Source: Baffinella frigidus (lineage: Eukaryota > Cryptophyceae > Cryptomonadales > Baffinellaceae). Taken from it: 33,071 bases of DNA. The position numbers were made by a program, and so were the translations under genes. The notes under the pieces were generated by a model that searched no databases, was not told where the DNA came from, and saw only the letters and a list, made by a program, of their open reading frames with translations. This document shows positions 271 through 32,890 of this stretch, piece after piece. The first letter of the stretch is position 1, and each line of letters begins with the position of its first letter. The stretch covers positions 168,837 through 201,907 of the forward strand of contig MU646570.1 in the NCBI GenBank assembly GCA_026770585.1, read 5' to 3'.

Positions 271-441
271 TCACTCGGGTTGACAGACTATTCTTATGTT
301 GACATCCTGGATGCGTGGTACAAAAACGTCAACTTTGGGGCGGGGGAGTGCCTTGGCGGCGTCCTCGCGCGCGTCGCCCTCCCAAATGTCGCACTGCCGC
401 AGGATCGATCTCCGCTTTTTCGCGAAGTGGTGCTCGATAAT
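271..441 (-). CDS. UBC gene terminal exon with repeat-derived tail
   Basis: Acceptor CCGAACACAG, phase 0, stop TGA at 273-271. The first ~30 residues (IIEHHFAKKRRSIL, QCDIWEGDAREDAAKAL) continue the BIRC6-like C-terminal helix. The last ~25 residues, from PRPKVDVFVPRIQDV on, coincide with a copy of the 53 bp dispersed repeat that also supplies the stop. The true end could lie earlier if an unseen donor is used. Confidence 0.72.
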   Translation of the reverse strand: MIEHHFAKKRRSILRQCDIWEGDAREDAAKALPRPKVDVFVPRIQDVNIRIVCQPE

Positions 442-3400
442 CTGTGTTCGGGTAAGGGTGTCAGGTTTCAAGTTGAGTGTGCAGGGTTGAGGGGTGTGAG
501 GGTGACGCCTGCGTTCACAAAGTTGACGTGTTTGTACCACACCCAGCATGTCAACTTAACAATAGCCAGCTATGAACCTCCGCGAAGACCTCCGACGGCT
601 TCAGGCTGTGCTCGAGCAGGGCCGTCACGACCGGTACCCACACAGCGGGCTAGTTTCTTGCCGATTCTGAGCGAGAATCGGTTAGGATATCCGCACCTCG
701 GCGAAAAGCTCCGAGGGTTTCAGCGTGTGCTCCAGCAGAGCGATCTTGAGCGTCGACGCGCGCGTGCACTAAGTTGATTTGCGGGTTGAGGGATTGCGTC
801 GCGCGGACTATTCTTAAGTTAACATCCTGGGTGCGCGGTACAACCCCGCCACTTTTGGCGCGGGAACGTGCCTCGTCGCACCGAAATGGCGAGACCAAAT
901 AGCCTGAGTTCGGTCATACCTCCGCGAAGACCTCCGACGGCTTCACGCTGTGCTCGAGGAGCGCGATCTTGAGCGTCGACGCGCGGGTGCGCGCGTTGTA
1001 CTGCTTCGCCCCCATGTCCCCGTGCCGCGTCCCCTGAAAGGTGAGGGTTTCAGGTTTTAGGTCCCCGTGCCTTGTCCCATGAAACACCACGCTAGGGCGT
1101 AAGTAGTAATTTCAGATGCAAGGCTTAGACAAACATCCCCTGTAGCGCGCGTGGGCGCGTTGTACTGCTTCGCCCCCGTGTCCCCATGCCGCGTCCCCTG
1201 AATGCTCGCTGTGTGTTGGGTCAACAGACGTACCCCCGGGGAGGTCAGGGGATCGCGCGGGGCCACGATGTTTTGTCCCTGAGCATGTCAATAACGAGAG
1301 GGTGTGAAGCGAGGTGCGGCGCGGGACTTGGATGCTGCAGGCATGGCTTTTGTGCCAACCTTGGTCGGATAGCGAGGGGGCAAATGGATCGGGTATTTAT
1401 TCGATTCAGTGCCCATATGGGCACTGAATCCCCCACAAGTTGGACACGACCCGTACCAATTTTTTAATTCGTTCCCGAATTCAAAAGATCCGTTTGCCCC
1501 CTCGCTATTCGACCAAGGCATAGCAACAACCAACCTAACACGCCACCAATAAAAGCCAGACGTAGCATACACGTGGAACTTGAATCGGTCATCTTCCGAA
1601 ATGAGAGGTGCCACACGAGAATGCTAGAGGGCCCTATTTAAAACCAATGTGCTTGTAAAAGTGGGCATTTGCGTAGTAACTTTCGTTGATTGGTGACGTA
1701 ACTAGCCATATATTGGCCAGTCACGAGGATGGAACTCCTTATCCTGGTACAAATATTTACAACCCCACATATAAACAGGATCCTCCAGCATTCTCGAGTG
1801 GTCGGGAGCGGGGTGCACCTGGATGCTCTCGAATCCGGGTTCGTGGAAGTAGGGATGCGGCACCACCATCGAGACCAGCACCCTTTTTAAATGTCGATTG
1901 TAGGCGTGTTGTACGGAGTTGGTCACGTGACCGCCCGAAACGCGGGAGTACACGTGACCAAACATACGAAAATTACTGCACACTACCTCACATGTACAGC
2001 TCCCCGGGTTTTAAAAAGGGTGTTTGGTCCGCCTTGTGTGGGGCACCTGGATGCTCTCGAAGCCGGGTTCGTTGAAGTAGGGCTGCGGCACCATGATCAG
2101 CCCTTGGATTGAGACCAGCACCTGTTTCCGCCCCAAAGTTGACGGATCTGTACCACACACCCAGCCTGTCGACTTAAGAATAGTCCGTCAAGCCGAGAGA
2201 GACCTTGATCAGCCCTTGGATTGAGAACAGCACCTGGCTGCGTAATTGTCCGATTGATATATGTGTTCGTACCAGGACATTTTAGATGTGCTACCGTGTG
2301 GGGTGTTGGACACCCGGTTTGATCAGCCTGTGGCTCGAGACCTGCTCCTGCTTGCGAGCTCATTTTATAATCATACCCAGTAGGGAAAATATTCCCAGGT
2401 GTGCAACCATTTTAAAGGGGAAATATTACCAGGTGTTTAGCCATTATAATGTGGCGAGCTGCGATCAAGCACACTGCTCCCTTGATGCATGCGGGAATCC
2501 AGCGTGCCTCTTCGCCGTTCCGGTGCAACTCAAGCGCCCGGAACCACACTGCGGGCTGGTATTCTAACCCCTAACAGTACGAAATGGCTCTAATGCCAAG
2601 CCAAATCTCATTTCAAAACGACCATGATCAGCCCTTCGAGACCAACATCTGGTGCGGGGGTTGGGGGTTGGGGGTTTTGCCAGCTGGGGCCCGGCCACGT
2701 CCTAAAGTTGACAGAATTGTACCACACACCCAGCGCGTCGACTTAAGAAGAGTCCGTCAAGCCGAGGGAGACCAGCATCTGCAGGAGCGCCAAAGTTGAC
2801 GGATTTGTACCACGCACCCAGACTGTCGACTTAAGAATAGTCTCGCAAGCCAGCTCCGAGTTTGGGGGGGGTGAGACCTGGAGGAGCGTGGAGAAGCGAA
2901 AATCGAAAAGGAAAATGAGAATTTGGTCCGGCAGCCTGCCAGCTCGATTGGTACCTCGCGCCCAGACTGCCGACTGAAACGTAGTCCGGCAAGGCAACGC
3001 GAGTGAGGCAGAGCTACGATACTTCGGCCCTGTTCGGAGGGTTGAGGGTGCGGCAGACCTGCAGGAGCGTGGAGGTGCCGTCCGGCTGCCAGCTCGGGCC
3101 CGGCCACGTCCCGAGGAGCGAGAGGCACACCTTGCCGTCCTGGTAGAGGTTCGGGTTGAACCGCACGCGCCCCCCGCCCGTCGTGGCAAAGTGCACGAGC
3201 GGCGGGGCGTGCGGGTAGTCCTCCGGGAGGAGCATGTCGAACTCGAAGAGCCCTGTTTCGTAGGGGGTGTCCTCTGGTCCGGTTATGAGTGCTTTGATGA
3301 CATCCGGGCGGTCCTCGTCGACGCGCACGAAGATCGAGGAGCCGTACTCCACTGGCAGGTCCTTGGCGAGCGACGCCATCTCCGTGGCGATGCGCGCCAT

Positions 3401-32299: not shown

Positions 32300-32304
32300 C
32301 TAGT

Positions 32305-32890
32305 TCAGGGTGTAGGAATGAGGGGTTCGGTTTTAGGGCATGGGGTTGAGGGTTGAGGGTTTGGGTTCCTCCCACCTACTGGTTACGAGCCCCAGGGTTT
32401 TGGGGTTTGAGGTTAGGGTTTAGGGTGTAGGGTTTAGAGATGAGGGGTTTGGAGTTTGGAGTTTGGAGTTTAGGGTTCAGGGTTCAGGGTTCAGGGTTTA
32501 GAGTTTAGGGTTTAGGGTTTAAAAGTTTGAGGTCAGGGAGTAGATTTGAGGGTTTGGAGTTTGGGGTTTGGAGTTGAGGGCGCGCAGCAGGACATCCCAG
32601 CCTTTGCACTCCTCCCACCTAGTTCAGGGTTGAGTGTTGAGGGTGTAGGGTTTAGGTTTTACGGTGTAGGGTTCCGGGCGTAAGGTGTGGATTCCTCCCT
32701 CCTGGTCCAGGTCACGAGCCCCATGGTTTGGGGTTTGGAGTTGAGGGTTCAGGGTTTGGAGTTGAGGGGTTTGAGTTTAGAGTTTAGGCTTTAGGGTTTA
32801 GGGTTTAGGGTTTAAGGTTTAGGGTTTTGAGTTTAGGGTTTAGGGTTTTGAGTTTGGGGTTTACGGTTGAGGGTTTAGGGGAACAATTTA
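32305..32890. repeat. TTTAGGG-like heptamer arrays
   Basis: Degenerate GGGTTTA/GGGTTCA/GGAGTTT units broken by partial exon 1 copies. C-rich on the glycosyltransferase sense strand. Confidence 0.9.
32580..32625 (-). pseudogene. 5'-side partial copy of glycosyltransferase exon 1
   Basis: Acceptor CTGAACTAG then WEECKGWDVLLRA, cut off by a heptamer-like array. Upstream of the intact exon. Further acceptor-edge pieces are near 32365-32385 and 32690-32725. Confidence 0.78.

Follow-up and report, generated by a model that had tools for sequence, protein, structure and literature searches.

Introns of three genes in a 33,071-nucleotide stretch of DNA from Baffinella frigidus (Cryptophyceae) contain copies of the edges of their neighbouring exons. 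The stretch, hereafter the window, corresponds to C266:168837-201907 of the 382-Mb assembly and holds a UBC, a SOUL, and a glycosyltransferase gene, with exons designated U1-U4, S1-S4, and G1-G9, respectively (Table 1). We confirmed that these exon-edge copies are real. They share one strand with their source, stay close to it, lie on the side given by the exon edge that they contain, and mostly retain the splice dinucleotide; copies also occur at seven of ten further places in the genome. Repeated local direct duplication of short exon-border stretches is the likely origin of the intron copies.

Side Rule in Three Genes

We searched both strands of the whole window with each of the 17 exons by BLAST and took E ≤ 0.02 as the threshold. 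The 27 copies comprise 26 matches obtained with the low-complexity filter and one (25442-25472) from an unfiltered run. All 27 are in the sense orientation, lie within 0.8 kb of the exon, and fall on the predicted side by midpoint, that is, 5′ parts of exons upstream and 3′ parts downstream; the exon-by-side groups agree throughout (19/19). The statement of the first-pass annotation that all copies are in sense and obey a side rule without clear exception holds for these 27 copies. The places that it had listed contain copies as described, on both sides of exons; the one near 30640 is recognized by eye only, and that at 29849-29926 is weak. Its figure of about 40 copies was not reached: 27 pass the threshold, and some weaker ones lie beyond it. 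Exons G4-G9, which it had not named, yielded six matches (one for G7, three for G8, and two for G9), all of them in sense and rule-obeying.

The matches are anchored at exon edges. On the 5′ side, 9/11 begin within 3 nucleotides (nt) of the exon start, and 0/11 reach the exon end. On the 3′ side, 12/16 finish no more than 2 nt from the end of the exon, and one also reaches the exon start. Most copies are partial, as had been claimed, the exceptions being three nearly whole 3′-side copies of U2, G2, and G8.

Dinucleotide-shuffled exons (40 sets), a comparison proposed with the original description of the copies, produced 10 matches, none of them local. The real exons had 1.53 local matches each in sense and 0 in antisense. 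Control segments of similar length gave, in sense and antisense, 0.18 and 0.26 local matches each for introns, 0.39 and 0.31 for the 13-24 kb region, and 0.11 and 0.02 for the 4-8.2 kb region. Within the window, to which this search was confined, no far match of the 17 exons was found at E ≤ 0.02.

Several copies belong to more complex arrangements. The S4 array includes a repeated spacer stretch: beyond the short copy at 12440-12450, the spacer is similar over 39 columns. The weak G3 copy at 29849-29926 forms a unit repeat with 30253-30336 at 73% identity. By eye, the G2 end (17 nt) and 6 intron nt form a 23-nt unit in direct tandem after the copy at 30986-31041; the place near 30640, below the BLAST threshold, has an exon end and donor flank 20/22 identical to G2, also by eye. 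About 10 nt ahead of the U3 copy at 1145-1197 resemble the U2 end. The junction-like copy at 2766-2790 adjoins a repeat resembling a miniature inverted-repeat transposable element (MITE) and has a long flank in common. The G8 copy at 24475-24619 looks split by a dispersed repeat when read by eye. Near 32228, G1 and two G1 copies have GC in the GT donor position.

Kinase Exons and Random Stretches Elsewhere in the Genome

Outside the window, we read ten places, each on a different contig, that together hold 12 kinase exon matches; these were taken, for their short open frames, from 108 listed matches. The matches were chosen before their sequences were read, and the exon edges are our own reading of unannotated DNA. 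The stretches span 1.9-2.3 kb each, and E ≤ 0.02 here holds for stretches of ~2 kb. Copies accompany 7/12 exon matches, at seven of the ten places. There are 20 in total, 20/20 in sense, and 18/20 lie on the predicted side by the midpoint of the matched core, the midpoints having been set by hand. One copy, at L034 (bases 59-95 of 147), lies at the middle of the exon. At L038, near 1150 and 1429, the exon has a GT donor and its copy a GC.

We also sampled 20 random stretches of 10 kb, of which 16 are all N; the other four were readable, one of them being 42% N. Repeat pairs found only locally in these four were 51 direct versus 1 inverted, the 51 being not independent, with many from the same arrays, and counted without regard to exons. 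Pairs also found elsewhere were 9 direct and 8 inverted. Random non-core kinase segments gave 3.96 direct and 1.03 inverted matches each and were left unused because copy-copy and neighbouring-exon pairs are mixed in.

Origin of the Copies

In the mechanism that we favour, short stretches straddling an exon border would be duplicated repeatedly, locally, and in direct orientation, the copied unit having one end inside the exon and the other in the intron, at or past the splice site. Lying within the intron, the extra copy would be removed by splicing and therefore be tolerated; it would then decay, the real exon remaining constrained. Events at acceptors would leave upstream copies consisting of AG and the 5′ part of the exon, and events at donors would leave downstream copies with the 3′ part and GT or GC. 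We further suppose that tandem duplication would underlie every event, that low-complexity repeats and MITE-like elements inserted later would have increased the distances between copies, and that splicing would always remove the copies.

The breakpoints were studied at 41 hand-picked edges of copies that extend to an exon edge, some of these copies being weaker and not among the 27; the kinase edges were placed by ourselves at AG or GT, and that of K42, set too early, is doubtful. AG stands before 10/13 of the 5′-side edges in the window and 9/9 in the kinase set (19/22 together, split by hand). GT (nine edges) or GC (two) follows 11/13 of the 3′-side edges in the window, and the kinase set adds 6/6 (17/19 together). 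Beyond the splice dinucleotide, intron flank is common to copy and exon at 15/41 edges, the doubtful K42 among them, with proportions of 7/13 at ≥91% identity, 3/12 at 85-91%, and 5/16 below 85%. One breakpoint in the exon and one in the intron would require such flank; the other 26/41 edges stop at the splice site within detection. Common flanks are clear for G8 on both sides, the G3 copy at 30040-30099, K35 and K36 of the kinase set, and the U1-U2 copy at 2778. The 5′ flanks of G1, G9, and K38 are repeat-like. In K35 (L035), the copy lies 85 nt upstream, made up by eye of 36 aligned and 49 further nt, and the flank similarity extends over about that length; K35 thus fits simple tandem geometry. 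The 23-nt tandem unit at the G2 end and the repeated S4 spacer likewise speak for duplication of exon borders. The first-pass annotation had explained the copies by tandem duplication between a breakpoint in the exon and another in the intron. Side, single orientation, 15/41 flanks, and K35 agree with this explanation, but it does not fully account for 26/41 edges or for the scarcity of intron-only duplicates.

Such duplicates were sought among local-only repeat pairs. In the three genes, all 17 pairs involving an exon are direct, and all seven exon-free direct pairs join two exon copies; the intergenic stretches hold 5 direct and 3 inverted pairs. A rerun with lighter masking, of short-period repeats only, made to check whether masking of long-period tandem repeats had hidden intron-only duplicates, gave 19 exon pairs, the same seven copy-copy kinds, and one inverted intron pair. 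The introns of the three genes contain six long-period tandem arrays (2382, 9923, 11231, 24854, 28882, and 30150), of which those at 9923, 11231, and 24854 are low-complexity by eye. Introns are ~8 times longer than exons, so random local duplication should, by a rough argument, leave more intron-only pairs, about three per edge event by our own rough estimate. This expectation is weakened by the decay of both members of an intron pair. The shortage means either a preference for exon borders or a longer persistence of exon copies than we accounted for. A process tied to splice sites, working on DNA or on transcribed chromatin, might copy ~20-70 nt of an exon edge, up to a few nt beyond AG or GT, into the adjoining intron, and do so much more often than it copies introns; we regard this tentative alternative as somewhat doubtful. 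If exon borders are the targets, the introns of this lineage would grow by piling up exon-edge copies.

A number of observations weigh against duplication of exon borders as we propose it. No spaced direct intron-only duplicate was found in the three genes. At 26/41 edges there is no detectable flank likeness past the splice dinucleotide, including 6/13 copies that are ≥91% identical to the exon. The U3 copy at 1145-1197 (92% identical) has only TTCAG of its flank in common, and the U2 copy at 1819-1870 (90%) has a flank score of 5 over 7 nt. The mean flank score was 9.3 at the 5′ edges (n = 11) against a null of 3.2, and 3.4 at the 3′ edges (n = 11) against 2.8; simulated co-duplicated flanks at 20-30% divergence gave mean scores of 17-32. 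The G1 flank match loses significance once tandem repeats are masked (P 0.064). At least one copy was found for 12/17 exons in the window, with U4, S3, G4, G5, and G6 having none at E ≤ 0.02, and 5/12 kinase matches lack any copy. Three 3′-side copies are almost whole exons (U2 at 1819-1881, G2 at 30986-31041, and G8 at 25076-25121), and the midpoints of those of G2 and G8 stand at 0.53. Two kinase copies at L036 fall on the wrong side by midpoint, with bases 59-94 and 59-114 of the exon copied upstream of it; they seem to be second-round copies, made from the 5′ copy at 1535-1621, since the first has the same inner end. Unfiltered runs also gave three uncounted antisense matches that run contrary to the single, local orientation: a G-rich G8 match at 23107-23129 (E 0.015), a G4 match 12 kb away (E 0.022), and a self-match inside U1 (E 0.008). 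The shortage of stop codons in the first copies and the junction-like copies, given below with the alternatives they bear on, belong to the same list.

The missing flanks also bear on insertion targeted to exon edges, in which breaks or transposons would favour AG|GT and repair would leave a long direct repeat of the edge around unrelated filler. The flank past AG or GT need not match in such a process, as it does not at 26/41 edges, and intron-only duplicates are scarce; in the U1-U2 intron, copies are separated from exons by MITE-like repeats, and 6/16 exon starts defined here begin with GT. However, 15/41 flanks do match, no single filler family was found, and the target duplications reported for some introners, of 3-9 bp (PMC9860276), are shorter than the repeats seen here, of 18-71 nt. 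We consider targeted insertion unlikely.

The copies may be read as decayed sequence or as coding sequence, and their codon pattern fits a constrained real exon and a drifting copy. Differences between exons and copies fall on the three codon positions as 72:57:131 in 621 codons, a third-position share of 50%, with 2 stops; our rough estimate for a drifting copy of a constrained exon is a share of 46%. Coding constraint on the copies was considered and rejected: the first 23 copies hinted at it, and then the third-position share fell from 54% to 50% and the two stops appeared. Those first 23 copies have 0 stops in 316 codons versus 3.2 simulated (P 0.037) and an enrichment of conservative changes (BLOSUM P 0.016), and the U3 copy at 697-767 differs by seven synonymous and three mild codon changes. 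Together with the nearly whole U2, G2, and G8 copies, these values would suit alternative exons, that is, whole or partial tandem duplications once or still spliced in and now decaying. One exon edge is absent in most copies, however, and the larger set is near the neutral estimate (P 0.088). No copy is present in the P0001 model of the UBC protein or in the glycosyltransferase protein P0121, the latter as expected if the copies are spliced out. Alternative exons therefore seem very improbable to us. Duplication of mutually exclusive exons likewise fits poorly, most copies lacking one edge and none occurring in P0121, though some might be used in minor transcripts.

The copies might instead date from the birth of the introns, when an AGGT-bearing coding segment would have been duplicated in tandem, leaving junction copies. 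Copies of exon-exon junctions, which a spliced-RNA origin would also produce, were found in 2/8 introns tested; they are weak, and the controls partly overlap. The junction-like cases, at 2778 and 1197, reach a score of ≥8 on both sides, and several junctions have exon starts with GT; against this, a control pairing in the U1-U2 intron scores 9 on its weaker side, the same as the case at 2778, and many copies include sequence of an intron already present, either its splice dinucleotides or its flank. We find this origin scarcely credible. For AGGT intron gain according to the Rogers model, tried separately and set aside, the figures are 8.8% of intron bases in exon copies and junction-like copies in 2/8 introns. 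To an assembly or haplotype artefact, which the many N runs of the assembly could suggest, we attach next to no weight: the counted copies are 0-29% different from the exons, their flanks are mostly unlike, and eight contigs (that of the window and seven of the ten others read) obey one rule.

Duplication across exon borders has counterparts in published work. In potato RdRp, a tandem duplication over an intron-exon border has been documented for one gene (PMC4974935). As in our copies, the unit joins the 3′ end region of an intron to the 5′ region of the exon that follows, the exonic piece from the upstream copy lands inside an intron, and the direct orientation beside the source recurs here in 27/27 copies of the window and 20/20 kinase copies. 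The potato case is a single event that gave a new intron in one gene, whereas Baffinella has variously decayed copies at both edges, inside introns, for 12/17 exons of the window and 7/12 kinase matches. Tandem duplication is also an accepted route of intron gain (review PMC3443670), in which exon sequence is duplicated in tandem and hidden by splicing; that system duplicates an exonic segment, whereas most of our copies end at or past a splice site, with the AG or GT/GC edge kept. In tandem exon duplication giving mutually exclusive exons, intron similarity rises with exon similarity (PMC6071210). Exon sequence and neighbouring intron are locally duplicated there as well, but those exons are whole and usable, and the Baffinella copies are mostly partial and decaying. 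Introners likewise add intron sequence in bulk, but as a dispersed family with short target duplications (PMC9860276); the copied sequence in Baffinella is the neighbouring exon. A search of the open-licence literature brought up no description of such copies in the introns of cryptophytes. As far as that search goes, the scale, the two-sided rule, and copies at differing stages of decay look new.

Intron lengthening is usually credited to transposons and simple repeats. The genome records a third source, readable through its decay stages and sharp side rule. In 12,577 intron bases (14 introns, N excluded), recognizable exon copies make up 8.8%, with weaker ones added by hand, tandem and low-complexity repeats 20.4%, and matches to the other genome stretches compared 23.0%. 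With this 8.8%, the earlier description of the process as a main engine of intron growth is unproven. Exon-edge copying is one contributor, perhaps with a larger share if decayed copies are counted. It leaves a countable footprint of boundary-crossing duplication, from which the rate, breakpoints, and cost of the events become measurable. In cryptophytes, false exon edges may be a frequent problem for gene prediction and for surveys of exon duplication. The same 14 introns contain C-rich telomere-like motifs (CCCTAA and variants), 71 on the sense strand versus 10 on the other; they often adjoin acceptors and could supply a branch point and pyrimidine tract.

Gene Models and Other Features of the Window

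Over 76% of the joined query, the UBC protein of the window and a Baffinella frigidus record are 100% identical. The NCBI protein P0001 joins U1-U2-U3 at 100% identity, and its model ends just past U3. The SOUL exons are a predicted model: joined S1-S4 score 91 bits against Pfam SOUL, versus 26 bits for the open reading frame (ORF) of S1 alone. P0121, a protein of 503 amino acids with Pfam glycosyltransferase domains, is 100% identical over 95% of an 80-amino acid glycosyltransferase piece, for which no related match was found in PDB or NCBIfam. P0121 maps G1-G3 and six more exons, G4-G9, down to 24,111. Its longest contig has 1,624 bases, too short to hold these introns, and we take it as transcript-like. 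Pfam scans at 13-28 kb and 4-8.5 kb (six frames) and at 28-33 kb (four frames) gave no match; the glycosyltransferase exons in the scanned stretches are too short to be picked up in this way. The median intron is 901 bp (14 introns) and the median exon 81 bp, counting the cut U1 and the inferred U4.

Table 1. Exons of the three genes and exon copies in the window, with the evidence for each (percentages are identities; bases are numbered within the source exon).
Feature	Position	Strand	Evidence
UBC exon U1, 3′ 243 nt as used in searches	3059..3301	-	ORF, Pfam UQ_con, P0001
UBC exon U2	2047..2121	-	P0001 match
UBC exon U3	920..1033	-	P0001 match
UBC exon U4, inferred	335..441	-	reading frame; without copy at E ≤ 0.02
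3′-side copy, U1 bases 191-215	2678..2702	-	96%, E 1.5e-4
U1-end/U2-start junction-like copy, outside the 27	2766..2790	-	scores 11 (U1 side), 9 (U2 side)
5′-side copy, U2 bases 14-32	2621..2639	-	E 0.012
Weaker 5′-side copy, U2 bases 3-28, outside the 27	2320..2345	-	E 0.033
5′-side copy, U2 bases 1-32, AG before	2202..2233	-	94%, E 2e-7
3′-side copy, U2 almost whole, in frame, 12 nt missing	1819..1881	-	90% over 52 nt, E 2e-13
5′-side copy, U3 bases 1-53	1145..1197	-	92%, E 2e-14
3′-side copy, U3 bases 44-114 with GT	697..767	-	83%, E 3e-15
3′-side copy, U3 bases 59-114 with GT	578..633	-	86%, E 3e-12
SOUL exon S1	8511..8609	+	joined S1-S4 vs Pfam SOUL
SOUL exon S2	10239..10361	+	joined S1-S4 vs Pfam SOUL
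SOUL exon S3, copy not found	11117..11188	+	joined S1-S4 vs Pfam SOUL
SOUL exon S4	11924..12004	+	joined S1-S4 vs Pfam SOUL
5′-side copy, S1 bases 1-65	8292..8356	+	83%, E 1e-13
3′-side copy, S1 bases 73-92	9379..9398	+	95%, E 0.007
5′-side copy, S2 (bases 10-52 aligned at 10122-10164)	10113..10164	+	79%, E 9e-6
3′-side copy, S2 bases 83-123 with GTA	10828..10868	+	78%, E 7e-5
3′-side copy, S4 bases 42-81 with GT	12131..12170	+	88%, E 4e-8
Short 3′-side copy, S4 end, 11 nt of exon, outside the 27	12440..12450	+	~20 nt common flank
3′-side copy, S4 bases 47-81 with GT	12594..12628	+	89%, E 7e-7
3′-side copy, S4 bases 41-73	12733..12765	+	E 0.014
Glycosyltransferase exon G1, GC donor	32229..32299	-	P0121
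Glycosyltransferase exon G2	31305..31363	-	P0121
Glycosyltransferase exon G3	29542..29653	-	P0121
Exon G4, weak copies only, none at E ≤ 0.02	28813..28871	-	P0121; not named in first-pass annotation
Exon G5, copy not found	27954..28052	-	P0121
Exon G6, no copy at E ≤ 0.02	27739..27789	-	P0121
Exon G7	26528..26587	-	P0121
Exon G8	25302..25349	-	P0121
Exon G9 with stop codon	24111..24191	-	P0121
5′-side copy, G1 bases 1-52	32567..32618	-	79%, E 3e-8
3′-side copy, G1 bases 38-71	31994..32027	-	E 6e-4
3′-side copy, G1 bases 27-69	31761..31809	-	E 6e-7
3′-side copy, G1 bases 44-71	31559..31586	-	93%, E 1e-5
3′-side copy, G2 nearly whole	30986..31041	-	89%, E 2e-14
5′-side copy, G3 bases 1-60	30275..30336	-	77%, E 8e-9
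5′-side copy, G3 bases 1-60, common flank	30040..30099	-	88%, E 7e-15
Weaker 5′-side copy, G3, outside the 27	29849..29926	-	E 0.022 twice
5′-side copy, G7 bases 1-38 with AG	26724..26761	-	84%, E 1e-6
Weak 3′-side copy, G7 bases 41-60 with donor, outside the 27	26328..26347	-	E 0.16
5′-side copy, G8 bases 1-30, common flank	25442..25472	-	97%, E 3e-7
3′-side copy, G8 bases 3-48, nearly whole, common flank	25076..25121	-	91%, E 5e-12 unfiltered, 5e-6 filtered
3′-side copy, G8 bases 23-48	24475..24619	-	18/18 at 24602-24619 (E 0.002), 12/13 at 24475-24487 (E 2.1)
5′-side copy, G9 bases 1-39 with AG	24324..24362	-	82%, E 5e-6
Copy, G9 bases 56-79, downstream of stop codon	23684..23707	-	88%, E 0.005

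The first exons of the glycosyltransferase gene lie ~11 kb upstream of G1, at 212030-212155 and near 211812-211883 of contig C266. Among them, within 201908-228999 of the contig (L009-L011), there are long runs of N. A diverged match to glycosyltransferase residues 57-77, at 210505-210567 of the contig, may be another copy.

Other repeats were seen in the window. In and around the UBC introns, a ~60-bp MITE-like repeat occurs in both orientations (180-350, 518-570, 803-880, 2110-2195, and 2698-2851); it has short inverted ends by eye, ends ~11 nt from the U2 acceptor, and has matches elsewhere in the genome. The U2-U3 intron carries a ~190-bp dispersed repeat (1611-1801) with at least 40 further genome places at 90-95% identity. 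Between genes, 13700-13860 is by eye a tandem array of short units, and a 387-bp inverted repeat (20358-20744 and 22644-23030) has arms of 99% identity lying 1.9 kb apart.

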